51,298 nucleotides of DNA from Verrucomicrobiota bacterium JB023 (GTDB lineage Bacteria; Verrucomicrobiota; Verrucomicrobiia; Verrucomicrobiales; Akkermansiaceae). The notes beneath the pieces are model-generated. The model saw only the letters and a list, made by a program, of their open reading frames with translations, was not told the origin of the DNA and searched no databases. The stretch covers positions 1-51,298 of the forward strand of contig JAUTCR010000041.1 of assembly GCA_030673895.1 (NCBI GenBank), read 5' to 3'. Each line of letters opens with the position of its first letter. Position 1 is the first letter of the stretch. Of the stretch, positions 18,171 through 28,558 are shown in pieces. The translations under genes were made by a program, and so were the position numbers.

Positions 18171-19208
18171 GTGCCAGACATTTTCACTTGGGTCCTGATC
18201 GTCTTCTGTCTCTCGCAGTCGGCCATGTTTTCAGGGCTGAATCTCGCCATGTTTTCGCTTTCCCGGCTCCAGCTGGAGACCGAGGTGAAGAAGGGGAGCC
18301 GGGCGGCGGTGGATATTCTCAAGCTTCGCAGCGACGCTAATCTTCTTCTCTGCACGATTCTTTGGGGGAATGTCTCCGTTAACGTCTGGCTCACCATCCT
18401 GTCGGACTCGGTCTTGGCGGGGGTGGGAGGATTCCTCTTTTCGACGATCGGGATCACCTTTTTCGGCGAGATTGTGCCACAGGCTTACTTCTCGCGCCAT
18501 GCCTTGCGGGCCGGCTCGCTTCTTTCGCCAGTTCTCCGTCTCTACCGGGTGCTCCTCTATCCGCTGGCTAAGCCCTGTGCGCTGATGCTCGACCGATGGA
18601 TCGGACCGGAGGGGCGCAGTTTCTTCCGCGAAGAAGAGATCGAGCTGATTCTTGATACTCACATTCGGGAGCCCTCCTCGGACATCTCCTATGCCGAGGG
18701 GAGAGGTGCGCTCAACTTCCTCCGGTTGGATGACCTCATGATCTCCAGCGAAGGCCGGACCCTCGCTCCGGAGACCATCATGCGATTGCCTGAGGATGAT
18801 CAAGGGCGCGCCTACCTGCCGGCAGCCGGCACACCGGAGGCAGAGGCCTTGGTCCGGCAATTCGCAGCCACCACGATGAAGTTCATGATCCTTGTCGATG
18901 GTGACGAGTGGCCCCGATATGCCCTCAATGCCGATGACTACCTACGCGAACTCTTCGTCCGGAAGGAGCCGGTGGGCTTGGAAGACTTTTGCCAGACGCC
19001 GGTGGTTGTCACCGACTCGAATCGAGCCCTGGACACCATCTTGCCCAAGCTCGATGTCGAGGCGGAGGACCACGACGACCGGGTCCTCGATCGGGAAGTC
19101 GTTCTCTACTGGGGAGAGCGACGCAAGCGCATCATCACGGGCGTCGATCTACTCGGCCGCCTGCTGCACGGCATTGTCGAGCGTCGTTTGGAGCTGACCC
19201 CGTCTTAG
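18171..19208 (+). CDS. DUF21/CNNM-domain membrane protein (CorC/HlyC-like)
   Basis: 345 aa, from a GTG start. The first ~150 residues are the CNNM transmembrane domain: an N-terminal helix (FTWVLIVFCLSQSAMFSGLN), the LSRLQLE segment, helices around residues 75-105, and FFGEIVPQAYFSRHAL. The second half is soluble, with a degenerate CBS-like arrangement (LDTILPKLDVE near residue 288). No clear C-terminal CorC_HlyC domain is visible, so it is shorter than typical family members. The family is linked to Mg2+/Co2+ efflux or homeostasis. Its stop overlaps the convergent MoxR gene by 4 bp. Confidence 0.88.
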   Translation: MPDIFTWVLIVFCLSQSAMFSGLNLAMFSLSRLQLETEVKKGSRAAVDILKLRSDANLLLCTILWGNVSVNVWLTILSDSVLAGVGGFLFSTIGITFFGEIVPQAYFSRHALRAGSLLSPVLRLYRVLLYPLAKPCALMLDRWIGPEGRSFFREEEIELILDTHIREPSSDISYAEGRGALNFLRLDDLMISSEGRTLAPETIMRLPEDDQGRAYLPAAGTPEAEALVRQFAATTMKFMILVDGDEWPRYALNADDYLRELFVRKEPVGLEDFCQTPVVVTDSNRALDTILPKLDVEAEDHDDRVLDREVVLYWGERRKRIITGVDLLGRLLHGIVERRLELTPS

Positions 19209-20149
19209 ACCGGGACGGGGACCTCGCCGAGGATCTCCTCCACGATGGTGCGTCCGGTCAGGCCAGAGAAGCGGGCATCGGGATCGAGAACCAGCCGGTG
19301 AGCGATGACTGGAGCGGCCAGCTCCTGGATGAGGTCCGGGGTGACAAAGTCCTTGCCGGTGAGAAGGGCGAGCGCCTGAGAGGCTCGCATCAGGGAGATT
19401 GATGCTCGCGGGGAAGCGGGGAGTTTCACCTTCTCCTGGGTGCGTGTGGCGGCGACCAGAGAGACGATGTAGTGGCGGATCTCCGGGGTGATGGTGACCT
19501 CGCGGGCCAAGCGGCGGATAGTCAGCAATTCCTCACGGGTGCAGACCGGCTTGAGCTGCTCCAGCGGATGACCGTTCTGCTGCTCGGCCAGCATGGCCGT
19601 TTCCTCCTCAATGGTGAGGTAGCCCAGATCGCACTGCATGGCGAAGCGGTCCATCTGAGCCTCCGGAAGAGGGAAGGTGCCGCGAAACTCAACCGGATTC
19701 TGGGTCGCCACGACAAAGAAGAGCTCCCCAAGGTCGTGGAGACGACCCTCAATGGTGGCTTGGCCTTCCGCCATGGCCTCGAGCAGAGCGGACTGGGTCC
19801 GCGGCGAAGCACGGTTGATCTCATCCGCGAGCAAAAGGTCGGTAAAGACTGGTCCGGGGTGGAAGCGGAACTCTTGGCTGGAAGGATCGAAAATGGAAAC
19901 CCCCAGCACGTCGGAAGGCAGGAGGTCGGGGGTGAACTGCACCCGCTTGAATGTCATTCCTCCAATTGAGCGGGCGATGGCCTTGGCGAGCGTCGTCTTC
20001 CCGGTGCCGGGATAATCCTCCAGCAAGAGATGGCCGCCGCTGATGAGGCAAGCCACGACTTGGCGAAGGGCGGGATCTTGTCCGCGAATGACGGTGGAAA
20101 GTGATTGCTCGAGTTGGTTGAGTTGATGCGTGGCTTCGGCTGAAGTCAT
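19205..20149 (-). CDS. MoxR family AAA+ ATPase
   Basis: 314 aa. Walker A is in EDYPGTGKTTLAKAIA (about residues 39-54). Walker B is in LLLADEINRASPRTQSALLEAMAE. The MoxR-specific GTFPLPEAQMDRF segment and sensor 1 (VVATQNPVEF) follow. These ATPases act as chaperone-like remodelling factors, usually beside VWA and DUF58 protein genes. Here the gene stands alone between a convergent DUF21 gene and a divergent secreted thioredoxin-like gene, so the partner is unknown. Confidence 0.93.
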   Translation of the reverse strand: MTSAEATHQLNQLEQSLSTVIRGQDPALRQVVACLISGGHLLLEDYPGTGKTTLAKAIARSIGGMTFKRVQFTPDLLPSDVLGVSIFDPSSQEFRFHPGPVFTDLLLADEINRASPRTQSALLEAMAEGQATIEGRLHDLGELFFVVATQNPVEFRGTFPLPEAQMDRFAMQCDLGYLTIEEETAMLAEQQNGHPLEQLKPVCTREELLTIRRLAREVTITPEIRHYIVSLVAATRTQEKVKLPASPRASISLMRASQALALLTGKDFVTPDLIQELAAPVIAHRLVLDPDARFSGLTGRTIVEEILGEVPVPV

Positions 20150-20280: not shown

Positions 20281-20946
20281 ATGAAGAACTTTCTTCTCGC
20301 TCTGTTACTGATGTCAGCCGGACTACCCGGCTATGAGATCCCGAAGGAAGCCAGCTCGGTCAGCGAGCTGGAGCGAGTGCTGACTCGCGCCAAGGGATCG
20401 GCCAAGCCGGTCGCCTTCGTTGTGGCGATTAAGACCCAGCCGGAGACATGAGACACGTGCCCCGGGACCATCAGTTCGTTGGTCAGTAAGCATTTGGTCG
20501 GATGGGCCGAGACGGTAGCGGTTGACGAGAGTGAGGTGATTGCCTTGCCCGGCGAGGTGCGGGATGCCCTGCGCGAGGTGGGTGGAATCACGCCCAAGGT
20601 GATTCTCATGAACCCTGGTCTAACAGCGAATTACGGAGGCTTTTCCCATCAGGAAATGACGGGCAAGAACTGGAGCATCATCTTCCGCGAGGCGCGCGGA
20701 GCGATCAGCCAGGCGAAGCGCGAGGGCAGTTTTCTAGACAGCGCGAGTCTCGTGAAGGTGGAAGACTCTCAGATTGAGAAATGGACAAGTGCCGCTGGCT
20801 CCGTGATCGAGGCGAAGCTGGTGGCGGTGGATGGCGAGGTGTTTGTCTTTGAGACGTCGGCCGGCAAGACCATCCGAGCGGCAGCGGACAAGCTCAGCGA
20901 AGAGTCCGTGCAGCGGGCGCGCTCGTTGGCGGAAGAATCAAAGTGA
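20281..20946 (+). CDS. secreted thioredoxin-like protein with in-frame UGA: candidate selenoprotein (U-x-x-C), or gene with a nonsense mutation
   Basis: The frame runs from ATG 20281 (after AAGGA) to 20946 and is broken only by one TGA at 20449-20451. If read as selenocysteine the protein has 221 aa: signal peptide at residues 1-19, a strand (KPVAFVVAI), then U57-D-T-C60, a helix, a second strand (ETVAVDES) and TPKVILMNPG, which resembles the cis-Pro strand of thioredoxin folds. The motif is therefore U-x-x-C in place of the usual C-x-x-C. A hairpin 21 nt after the UGA has features of a bacterial SECIS (separate entry). Sequence on both sides is equally protein-like. Without Sec insertion the product would be a useless 56-residue stub. 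The next gene overlaps its stop (GTGA), so translation through to the end matters. The alternative is a recent pseudogene. No sel genes are in the window. Confidence 0.6.
20466..20484 (+). promoter_or_regulatory. candidate bacterial SECIS hairpin
   Basis: GACCA (20466-20470) pairs with TGGTC (20480-20484). Inside this lie a U-U mismatch and one C-G pair closing a five-base loop AGTTC. There are 21 nt from the UGA to the loop, and a G is at loop position 2. Both agree with my memory of the bacterial SECIS rules (loop 16-37 nt from the UGA, G in the first two loop bases). The hairpin is short and could be chance. Confidence 0.4.
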
Positions 20947-21764
20947 AGCTCATAGGCGGCCCTAAGGATGGGAGATGGACAGCCCGCTATGTCCTCTGGC
21001 GACTGGTCCGTTTCTTCGTTTTTGGCTATCTGGTGTTGTTCGTTTTTGCCTGCACAGTGGGGAATCGGATGATTTTTCATCCGCCGCCGTCGAGTTATGA
21101 TGGGAGTGAGGCTCGGCACGTCTCATTCGAGGGAGTGAGCGGCTTTTACGAGGCGGCTACCAACCCCGAGATGCCGACCCTGATTTGGTCGCATGGCAAT
21201 GCGGAAGATGCTGGCCAAGTCGTGATGCTGGGGGACCTCTTCACCCGGCTCGGTTACGGCTTTCTCGTCTACGATTATCCGGGATACGGATTATCCGAAG
21301 GGACGCCTGATGAGCAAAGCTGCTATCGATCCGCAGAAAAGGCCTACCATTTCCTTCGGGATGAAAAGGCGATTCCGCCCGATCAAATCATCGCTGTCGG
21401 TCAGTCCGTAGGCAGCGGTATGGCCACATGGCTGGCTGCCGAAAAGGAAGTGGGCGGACTGATTCTCATCGCGCCCTTCAAATCCGCTTTCCGGGTCGCG
21501 ACGAGGGTCAGGATTCTCCCTTGGGATCCCTTCAATAATCTCGCGAAGATGGCACAAGTGACCGCTCCAGTCCTCGTGATCCATGGAGACGAGGATGAAG
21601 TCATCGCCTATTTGCAGGGGAAGAAGGTCTTTGCTGCCGCAACGTCTGCAAAGAGAATGGAGACGGTGGAAGGTGGCCGACATAATGACCTTTGGGTGAA
21701 TCATCGTCAGCAAATGCTCTCCGCAATGAGGCGTTTCCTTGATGAATATCAGAGTGAACGGTGA
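20943..21764 (+). CDS. alpha/beta hydrolase, membrane-anchored (ABHD13/Bem46-like)
   Basis: 273 aa from a GTG start that overlaps the stop of the upstream gene by four bases, so the two are translationally coupled. One N-terminal transmembrane helix (VRFFVFGYLVLFVFACTVG) anchors it. The hydrolase domain has SHGNAEDAGQ, YDYPGYGLSEG, the nucleophile elbow GQSVGSG, acid HGDEDEVI and catalytic His in GGRHNDLW. The substrate is unknown; relatives are serine hydrolases acting on acyl esters or thioesters. Coupling to a thioredoxin-like protein is unusual and hints at a shared envelope function. Confidence 0.88.
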   Translation: MKLIGGPKDGRWTARYVLWRLVRFFVFGYLVLFVFACTVGNRMIFHPPPSSYDGSEARHVSFEGVSGFYEAATNPEMPTLIWSHGNAEDAGQVVMLGDLFTRLGYGFLVYDYPGYGLSEGTPDEQSCYRSAEKAYHFLRDEKAIPPDQIIAVGQSVGSGMATWLAAEKEVGGLILIAPFKSAFRVATRVRILPWDPFNNLAKMAQVTAPVLVIHGDEDEVIAYLQGKKVFAAATSAKRMETVEGGRHNDLWVNHRQQMLSAMRRFLDEYQSER

Positions 21765-27687: not shown

Positions 27688-28558
27688 ACGCTTGCAAGAT
27701 TTGGGAGAGGAGAAGGTGGTCGCGCGCATCTTGTCCCGCTTGCCGACCACGGAGACCTTGTCCGTCGGTCCGGGAGATGACTGCGCCGTGGTGCGGGAAG
27801 GGGAGGGCGCGTTGCTTCTCAAGACGGATGCTGTCATCGAGGGGATGCATTATCTCCCCAGGACTCGCGCCGAGGATGTGGGCTGGAAGGCCATCGCACG
27901 GGTGGCCAGCGATTTCGCGGCGATGGGCGGGCAGCCGGAGGCTTATCTGGTGACGCTGGCCTTGCCCGCGAGCCGGGAATTGGCGTGGGTGGAGGCTCTT
28001 TACGCAGGCATTTCCCGGTGCTTGGCAGAGTGTGGAGGCTGTTTGGCGGGCGGAGAAACGGTGGGCATTCCCGAGGGCGGCCCGGCGATGATCAGCGTCG
28101 CGGGCACCGGGCGGGCGACCCGGCCGGTTTTGCGTTCCGGAGGCTCTGCAGGAGAGAGCCTCTGGGTGACCGGGCGGCTCGGAGGAAGCTTTGCCAGCGG
28201 GAGGCACCTCAGTTTTACGCCCAGAGTGCGGGAGGGGCAGTGGTTAGCCGGTCAGGCGAGCGCGATGATGGATTTATCCGATGGCCTGGCCCGCGATTTG
28301 CCTCGACTTGCAGAGGCGAGTGATTGTGGCTTTGTGATTGAGCGTGAACGTCTTCCCCGGCACGAGGGCTGCTCGGTGGAAGAGGCGATGACGGAGGGGG
28401 AAGATTTTGAGCTGCTTTTTGCGGCAGAGGATGGAGATTGGTCCGCAGCTTTCCAACGCGCCTTCCCGGAAGTGGGTTTGAGCCGGATTGGGCGACTTGT
28501 TCCCCGCGGAGAAGGGGACCCGGCGGGGGCGGAGGGCTGGCAACATTTCACATCATGA
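27680..28558 (+). CDS. thiL: thiamine-monophosphate kinase
   Basis: 292 aa. It phosphorylates thiamine monophosphate to the active cofactor thiamine diphosphate. AIR-synthase-like fold: VGPGDDCAVV near residue 29, the Asp-rich KTDAVIEGMHY, ARVASDFAAMGGQP, SVAGTGRA, MDLSDGLARDL, and EGEDFELLFA near the C-terminus, all as in ThiL. It starts with GTG (overlap of 8 bp with the CPBP gene) and ends in an ATGA overlap with the DUF445 gene. No TPP riboswitch is visible, as expected inside an operon. Confidence 0.96.
   Translation: MSERLQDLGEEKVVARILSRLPTTETLSVGPGDDCAVVREGEGALLLKTDAVIEGMHYLPRTRAEDVGWKAIARVASDFAAMGGQPEAYLVTLALPASRELAWVEALYAGISRCLAECGGCLAGGETVGIPEGGPAMISVAGTGRATRPVLRSGGSAGESLWVTGRLGGSFASGRHLSFTPRVREGQWLAGQASAMMDLSDGLARDLPRLAEASDCGFVIERERLPRHEGCSVEEAMTEGEDFELLFAAEDGDWSAAFQRAFPEVGLSRIGRLVPRGEGDPAGAEGWQHFTS

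Follow-up and report, generated by a model that had tools for sequence, protein, structure and literature searches.

A predicted selenoprotein family of Verrucomicrobiota combining a UxxC thioredoxin fold with a C-terminal SHD1 domain

The window, that is the whole stretch of 51,298 nucleotides analysed here, contains a gene whose reading frame is interrupted by one TGA; a gene for a MoxR-type AAA ATPase precedes it divergently and one for an alpha/beta hydrolase follows (Table 1). Codon 57 is the sole internal TGA; 56 codons precede it, and 164 sense codons follow it before the terminal TGA. The translation around codon 57 reads KTQPET-U-DTCPGTISS. The first-pass annotation of this DNA had described one frame, open on both sides of a single TGA and coupled by a GTGA overlap to the hydrolase gene. 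Re-derivation returned the same coordinates and the same overlap, the GTG being located at 20943-20945 and the terminal TGA at 20944-20946. The mechanically defined ORF at the locus covers 20479-20946 (155 aa). Since annotation is expected to cut such a gene at the UGA or to start it too late, a redox gene of this kind is easily missed.

Table 1. Positions of the predicted selenoprotein gene, its parts and its neighbours in the window
Feature	Position	Strand	Details and basis
Predicted selenoprotein gene	20281..20946	+	221 codons, UGA codon 57 read as Sec, terminal TGA 20944-20946
In-frame TGA, predicted Sec57, U of U-D-T-C (position 1)	20449..20451	+	translation and alignment
Codon of Cys60, putative resolving Cys of UxxC	20458..20460	+	translation and alignment
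Likely signal peptide, residues 1-17	20281..20331	+	hydrophobic start common to aligned members
Predicted thioredoxin-fold domain, residues 21-146	20341..20718	+	AlphaFold2 model, structure comparison
Predicted SHD1 domain, residues 163-220	20767..20940	+	fold match to 2hbp; Pfam SHD1 in members; A1 profile against PDB
Pro105, in 22 of 22 aligned members; presumed cis-Pro of thioredoxin folds	20593..20595	+	alignment
SECIS-like hairpin	20466..20484	+	loop AGTTC 20473-20477; conserved loop position and sequence, stem covariation
Alpha/beta hydrolase, serine aminopeptidase S33 type	20943..21764	+	start overlaps selenoprotein stop as GTGA
MoxR-type AAA ATPase, divergent neighbour	19205..20149	-	profile match

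TGA is read as stop in translation table 11, and it terminates six of the 20 long ORFs in the window as well as this gene itself. The internal TGA could thus be a real stop or a sequencing or assembly error, and the locus a pseudogene or the gene for a peptide of 56 codons. Against this, pN was lower than pS both upstream and downstream of the TGA in all 21 pairs formed by seven sequences. Constraint on the protein level acts on either side of the codon and continues after it. In addition, the same TGA is present in 48 distinct homologous sites in separate assemblies, and the clade around the window gene carries TGA throughout, as detailed below. A genuine stop or an error can therefore be given hardly any weight.

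Homologues were searched in 98 genomes, comprising the genome of the window and others from the same genus, family or order. A single internal TGA at the same site was detected in homologues from the three other genomes of the genus, from six genomes that represent a second genus (g9) within the family, and from more distant genomes; a further copy in the own genome (G000:C31:33947-34690) has it as well. Members occur throughout much of the order, and some genomes have several copies; in one genome, G077, at least five copies with a verified TGA are present. The first-pass annotation had noted neither this spread nor the C-terminal SHD1 domain. Alignment A1 consists of 22 sequences, and its profile was used to read the site in further loci. 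In A1, the column of the UGA shows U in 19 rows and Cys in three, and 21 of the 22 rows contain Cys three residues after it. A scan of named genomes yielded 17 loci, all with TGA at residue 57 or 58. They derive from two cultured Verrucomicrobiota, Roseibacillus persicicus KCTC 12988 and R. ishigakijimensis KCTC 12986, and from MAGs titled Akkermansiaceae or Verrucomicrobiales, among others, and three of the 17 are genus relatives (G001-G003) and thus also part of the 98-genome set. Finding the same TGA in independent assemblies, including those of the two cultured strains, argues against an artefact of one assembly, which had been named beforehand as a possible source of error. That the same UGA occupies the same place in many marine-type relatives from Verrucomicrobiota indicates a selenoprotein family. 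Every locus found came from Verrucomicrobiota or from a relative of the window genome; since the named-genome scan used two patterns, one of which was unable to match TGA forms, the family may extend to other phyla. In IMG/VR, none of 130 pattern-matching stretches encodes a relative.

The hydrolase and MoxR genes each adjoin the gene in two of three other Roseibacillus loci, and neither lies beside it in the 14 other named-genome loci, several of which include little flanking sequence. A conserved operon was rejected on these grounds, and the neighbours therefore tell little about the gene.

The codon at the site was read in 88 distinct homologous sites, consisting of the best matches among those listed and of 24 stretches picked because they cover the site. 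TGA was found in 48 of them, a Cys codon (TGC or TGT) in 27, and another codon in 13 (GAT and CAA twice each; GAG, at a gap; GCC, AAA, AAG, GGC, CGG, GTC, GGG, and GGA). The expectation that homologues would show TGA or Cys aligned with residue 57 was therefore borne out. The nearest relatives keep TGA, and Cys appears in more distant ones, in which the site reads T-C-P-L-C, S-C-P-K-C or similar. Close relatives with a sense codon other than Cys, which would have spoken against a selenoprotein, were not among them: all 13 such sites belong to divergent homologues. Among codons differing from TGA by one base, the two Cys codons and a single GGA, in the divergent L186, were seen at the site, and TGG occurred at none of the 88 sites among the matches listed.

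For a tree of 87 sequences and 140 columns, in which 24 of the 84 inner branches were left open, U was written as C so that the site itself did not separate the two forms. The window gene is placed in a clade of 24 rows, all of them with TGA (support 99/99). Distributing the states U, Cys and other on this tree takes nine changes, versus 34.5 with shuffled labels.

Selenocysteine insertion also depends on the genome, and a search for selA, selB, selC and selD had been suggested with the first-pass annotation. All four are present. SelA is recognised with 441 bits, SelB with 329.5 bits (positions 2-580 of 581), and SelD with 374 bits, the selD gene having an in-frame TGA of its own (context SSCAGUASKL). 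The tRNA-Sec scored 62.3 bits and was called tRNA-SeC with anticodon tca (UCA) by ARAGORN. Defining Sec-users by selA or selB over the curated cut-off, 45 of the 98 genomes were assigned to this group. Among the matches listed, all 27 genomes with a verified TGA member are Sec-users, and a TGA member was found in none of the 53 non-users (Fisher p 1.7e-12). Counted per genus, the 11 genera with TGA are all contained in the 18 Sec-user genera out of 35 (p 1e-4). One more genome, G069, lies outside the 27 and harbors selA and selB; its TGA locus L030 obtained a weak profile score and was counted in the 48 TGA sites and left out of the 27 genomes. Conversely, 14 of 15 genomes with Cys members have neither selA nor selB over the cut-off, the exception being G014. 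Single components were missed in some TGA genomes: selA escaped detection in G059 and G063, draft genomes in roughly 290 and 670 contigs, selB scored below the cut-off in G089, and no tRNA-Sec of at least 50.8 bits was among the matches listed for G045, G053 and G092.

These data also bear on a reading in which UGA is decoded as Cys or Trp instead of Sec, by a UGA-reading tRNA-Cys or under code 4. Some bacteria have tRNAs that recode UGA to Cys, and the Cys residues at the site in homologues would suit such decoding. The genome, however, encodes SelA, SelB and the tRNA-SeC called by ARAGORN, and its selD gene itself contains a TGA; TGA serves as a normal terminator in the window, and TGG is used at no site read. 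Moreover, the SECIS-like loop described next is conserved in TGA sites and absent from Cys sites under the strict rule. Decoding as Cys or Trp is accordingly considered very unlikely.

Bacterial SECIS elements are hairpins that lie close to the UGA on its 3' side and carry a G near the start of the loop. A hairpin of this kind follows the UGA of the window gene, its stem beginning 14 nt and its loop 21 nt after the TGA. The earlier proposal of a hairpin with G in a five-base loop 21 bases downstream was thus correct as to the hairpin, the distance being that from TGA to loop and not to stem. A conserved loop G is likewise indicated for bacterial SECIS in a figure legend of PMC1794560. As regards its interpretation as a SECIS, position and sequence of the loop across relatives exceed chance, while stability taken alone is no proof: of 40 synonymous resamples of the window hairpin, 13 were as stable, and since folding energy was likewise unexceptional for most family members, it was dropped as evidence. 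A criterion accepting any hairpin whose loop has a G as its first or second base was also uninformative, with 48 of 48 TGA sites versus 42.2 of 48 after resampling. No match was obtained at the hairpin with Rfam.

A strict rule, which was set after seeing the data, demanded a five-base loop of the type [AG]GT at exactly +18 or +21 nt and a stem of at least four pairs. Among the matches listed, 42 of the 48 TGA sites show this loop, 24 at +21 and 18 at +18, and six do not; synonymous codon resampling gave a mean of 1.4 of 48 (sd 1.2, maximum 6, 500 sets), and none of the 27 Cys homologues has it. Because both strict positions were taken from the data, a loose rule is the fairer test. When loops of four to seven bases were accepted anywhere near, provided that they began with [AG]GT, 44 of 48 TGA sites were positive, among them L019 with a seven-base loop at +23 and L030 at +25, versus 11.7 after resampling (sd 2.5, maximum 19, 200 sets). 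Seven of the 27 Cys homologues also comply with the loose rule.

Codon usage and pairing were inspected in A3, a subfamily set of 21 distinct sequences. The Ser codon forming the loop is AGT in all 21, compared with 60 of 448 Ser codons in the remainder of these genes. Without exception, the Ile or Val codon before this Ser ends in C and the codon after it in G (21 of 21 each). In the stem, 77.6% of the cells are paired versus 71.0 after shuffling, and the covariation score is 0.278 versus 0.159, values that were reached in none of 500 shuffles in either case; all six versions of the stem obtained by sliding had lower covariation than the proposed one. No excess was detected for two-sided pair changes (4 versus 3.0, 110 of 500 shuffles as high) or for further pair types (7 versus 8.1, 464 of 500 as high). 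Covariation thus supports the hairpin on three of five measures, which relatedness alone could inflate. The outer pair is unpaired in 13 and pair 23-31 fails in 15 of the 21 sequences. Between L001 and L004, the outer pair changes from G-C to C-G, synonymously on both sides.

Structure prediction was performed with AlphaFold2 on 18 sequences, resulting in a mean pLDDT of 84.3 and a pTM of 0.65; of the five models, two came out poorly (53.9 and 49.4), and confidence was low at residues 1-4 and 7-16. In the model, a strand (44-49) is followed by the loop U57-x-x-C60 and a helix (61-72); the C-terminal domain stands apart and consists mainly of beta structure. The UGA is therefore located where it had been expected, at the first Cys of a C-x-x-C between strand and helix, and Pro105 takes a position that would correspond to the cis-Pro of thioredoxin folds. 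In structure comparisons, residues 21-146 resembled thioredoxins and proteins of the ERp18/DsbH kind, with a best E of 8.8e-4 in Foldseek and a Z of at most 9.2 in VIA. Residues 163-220 match SHD1 of yeast Sla1, 2hbp, with Z 8.1 (58 of 66 residues aligned, rmsd 2.5, 22% identity). The Z values for both domains are middling, and sequence profiles agree with them. Searching the A1 profile against PDB retrieved SLA1 2hbp with E 6.1e-4 and ERp18/p19 with E 0.63-0.71. Pfam SHD1 was detected in seven of 22 members at E <= 0.1 (best 1.1e-8), the window protein remaining below the cut-off with E 0.17, and Thioredoxin_7 in three of 22 (best 1.8e-4). To the Pfam thioredoxin families Thioredoxin_7 and Thioredoxin_9, the window protein has no match over the curated cut-off. 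The top matches of the PDB profile search, designed 'Cake' proteins at profile positions 152-201 (E to 1.3e-8), were set aside as repeat matches, and so was a weak Pfam PAS_9 match (E 0.085). The hydrophobic start common to the aligned members suggests that the protein is exported, so that its mature form would be periplasmic or surface-exposed. Calculated with Cys in place of Sec, the mass of the full-length product is near 23.6 kDa, and that of the product lacking residues 1-17 about 21.8 kDa.

The first-pass annotation had known of no such family described as a selenoprotein. To the window protein, NCBIfam release 20.0 produced no match at E up to 10, and the 22 members obtained weak and scattered matches only at E up to 1 (best 0.0093). 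Selenoproteins with a UxxC thioredoxin fold as such are not new: Table 1 of PMC13188914, a 2026 review stating coverage of 119 selenoprotein families or subfamilies, includes Sec-thioredoxin PF00085, a thiol:disulphide interchange protein of PF13098 and DsbA/DsbG-like proteins. Besides the UxxC fold, they have in common with the window family Cys homologues elsewhere and Sec machinery in the genome. The window protein differs from these types in reaching no curated thioredoxin model, in its C-terminal SHD1 domain and in a secreted appearance, and its subfamily in the motif U-x-x-C-[PS]-G. Two further described families were compared. The Trx7/PDZ selenoprotein NF041199 resembles the window family in a Thioredoxin_7-like domain with Sec, but it has 390 positions and, according to the table in PMC13188914, a CxxU motif and a PDZ domain, as opposed to UxxC. 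It was rejected because only two of 22 members matched it at E <= 1 (best 0.07) and the motif is UxxC, not CxxU. The model is over cut-off at three loci, none of which belongs to the window family; G001 and G011, two genomes with a match over cut-off, also carry that family, and no such match was found in the own genome. Two of the NF041199 matches have a TGA inside the match (G001:C1:165735-166871 and G011:C30:282223-283347). By description, the hypothetical protein GOS_C comes nearest to the window family; it is listed as NF045500 (Omp28_seleno) in the table of PMC13188914. It shares with the window family a marine origin, a thioredoxin-like fold and UxxC (PMC2398784); its model, in contrast, is of Omp28 type with 377 positions. 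NF045500 was rejected as well: none of ten genomes had a match over cut-off, and none of nine weak matches fell on family loci.

Among solved structures, the nearest folds besides classical thioredoxins include those of ERp18/AGR2-type (Thioredoxin_7) proteins and DsbH (3ira, AGR2, ERp19, DsbH). They show 9-15% identity to the window protein and lack SHD1. The thioredoxin domains of ERp18/AGR2-type proteins and DsbH contain Cys, not Sec. The fold of SHD1 (PF03983, 2hbp) is in turn shared by residues 163-220 of the window protein.

The gene might nevertheless belong to an already described family, for example to the loosely defined 'Trx-like' groups from Global Ocean Sampling. PMC2398784 reports Trx-like UxxC groups with between 22 and 321 sequences each, along with the UxxC hypothetical family GOS_C of 74, and reads from marine Verrucomicrobiota could be contained in either. 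On the other hand, no NCBIfam model fits the window protein or the 22 members, none of the ten genomes searched with the GOS_C model NF045500 showed a match at this gene, and no entry in Table 1 of PMC13188914, as far as available, names an architecture of thioredoxin fold plus SHD1. No description of such a selenoprotein family was recognised in the literature covered either, mostly outside subscription papers, so that the earlier statement holds within this scope. Membership in a described family is rather unlikely. The family with thioredoxin fold and SHD1 is probably undescribed; the family would be new and the mechanism ordinary. It would add to the selenoproteins a domain pairing that was not found described. 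The phylum name Verrucomicrobiota is absent from the available main text of the selenoprotein papers compared, among them PMC9312934, PMC2398784, PMC1794560 and PMC12013277.

From these analyses, with a probability of roughly 0.93, the gene specifies an exported selenoprotein in which UGA codon 57 is translated as Sec by the ordinary bacterial route and which combines a thioredoxin fold with SHD1. The machinery in the genome, the exchange of TGA and Cys in relatives and the thioredoxin fold all support this selenoprotein reading, which the first-pass annotation had offered as a candidate. Comparison brings out the putative recoding site with its Sec/Cys exchange, the constrained hairpin, the machinery and the predicted fold, and we infer export, SelB binding and Sec insertion, the direction of the reaction, a partner and the role of SHD1. 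SelA and SelD would make Sec-tRNA with anticodon UCA, and SelB would bind the hairpin just downstream (loop AGUUC) and bring the Sec-tRNA to the UGA. In the mature protein, the active site Sec-Asp-Thr-Cys would lie in the thioredoxin-fold domain, to which the SHD1 domain would be joined on the C-terminal side. With its UxxC motif, the product may act as an exported thiol/selenol oxidoreductase, most likely a periplasmic thiol-disulphide oxidoreductase, in which the selenol of Sec57 would attack first and Cys60 would resolve the selenenylsulphide. SHD1 of yeast Sla1 binds NPFxD endocytic signals; here, the domain probably holds a partner or substrate. Natural Sec/Cys pairs are available within a single bacterial order, and the benefit of Sec in an exported thioredoxin-like protein is therefore directly testable.

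Several members deviate at the active site. In L168, L176 and L182, UGPA or UGPS is found in place of UGPC, and part of the family therefore has no resolving Cys at that place. Neither Sec nor Cys is present at the site in L077, L080, L081, L085, L092, L096, L098, L170, L175, L181 and L184-L186, the 13 divergent homologues mentioned above, in which redox activity has probably been lost. L030 of G069 (L030:1459-2241, minus strand) encodes a protein resembling TlpA/ResA whose motif is UGPC and whose C-terminus is SHD1-like, apparently a second type of Sec thioredoxin fold joined to SHD1. As a tentative and rather doubtful extension, the family might be a main user of the Sec trait in Verrucomicrobiales and perhaps maintain it there. 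On this view, SHD1 would be the adaptor of an exported Sec redox module, which was multiplied and split into UxxC and UGPS/UGPA forms, yielding reductases on the one hand and one-Sec peroxidase-like enzymes on the other, both acting on surface or periplasmic partners.

SelD of the organism is itself predicted to be a selenoprotein (L067, G000:C17:129582-130511, minus strand) with the motif UASK, and an AGTCT-loop hairpin is located 32 nt after its TGA. Sec-SelD genes were present in 26 of 30 SelD loci examined, and in 24 of these 26, the loop of the best hairpin with five loop bases is of the [AG]GT type and lies 32 nt downstream of the TGA. In G077:C77, G089:C44 and G092:C43, SelD profile matches fall within TGA-free frames of 749-806 codons, which would suit a fusion of SelD with a further domain. 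A weak match to the SelD profile (40 bits, below cut-off) was also obtained in the window at 27752-28210 on the plus strand, where the product could perhaps be an AIR-synthase-fold kinase such as ThiL.
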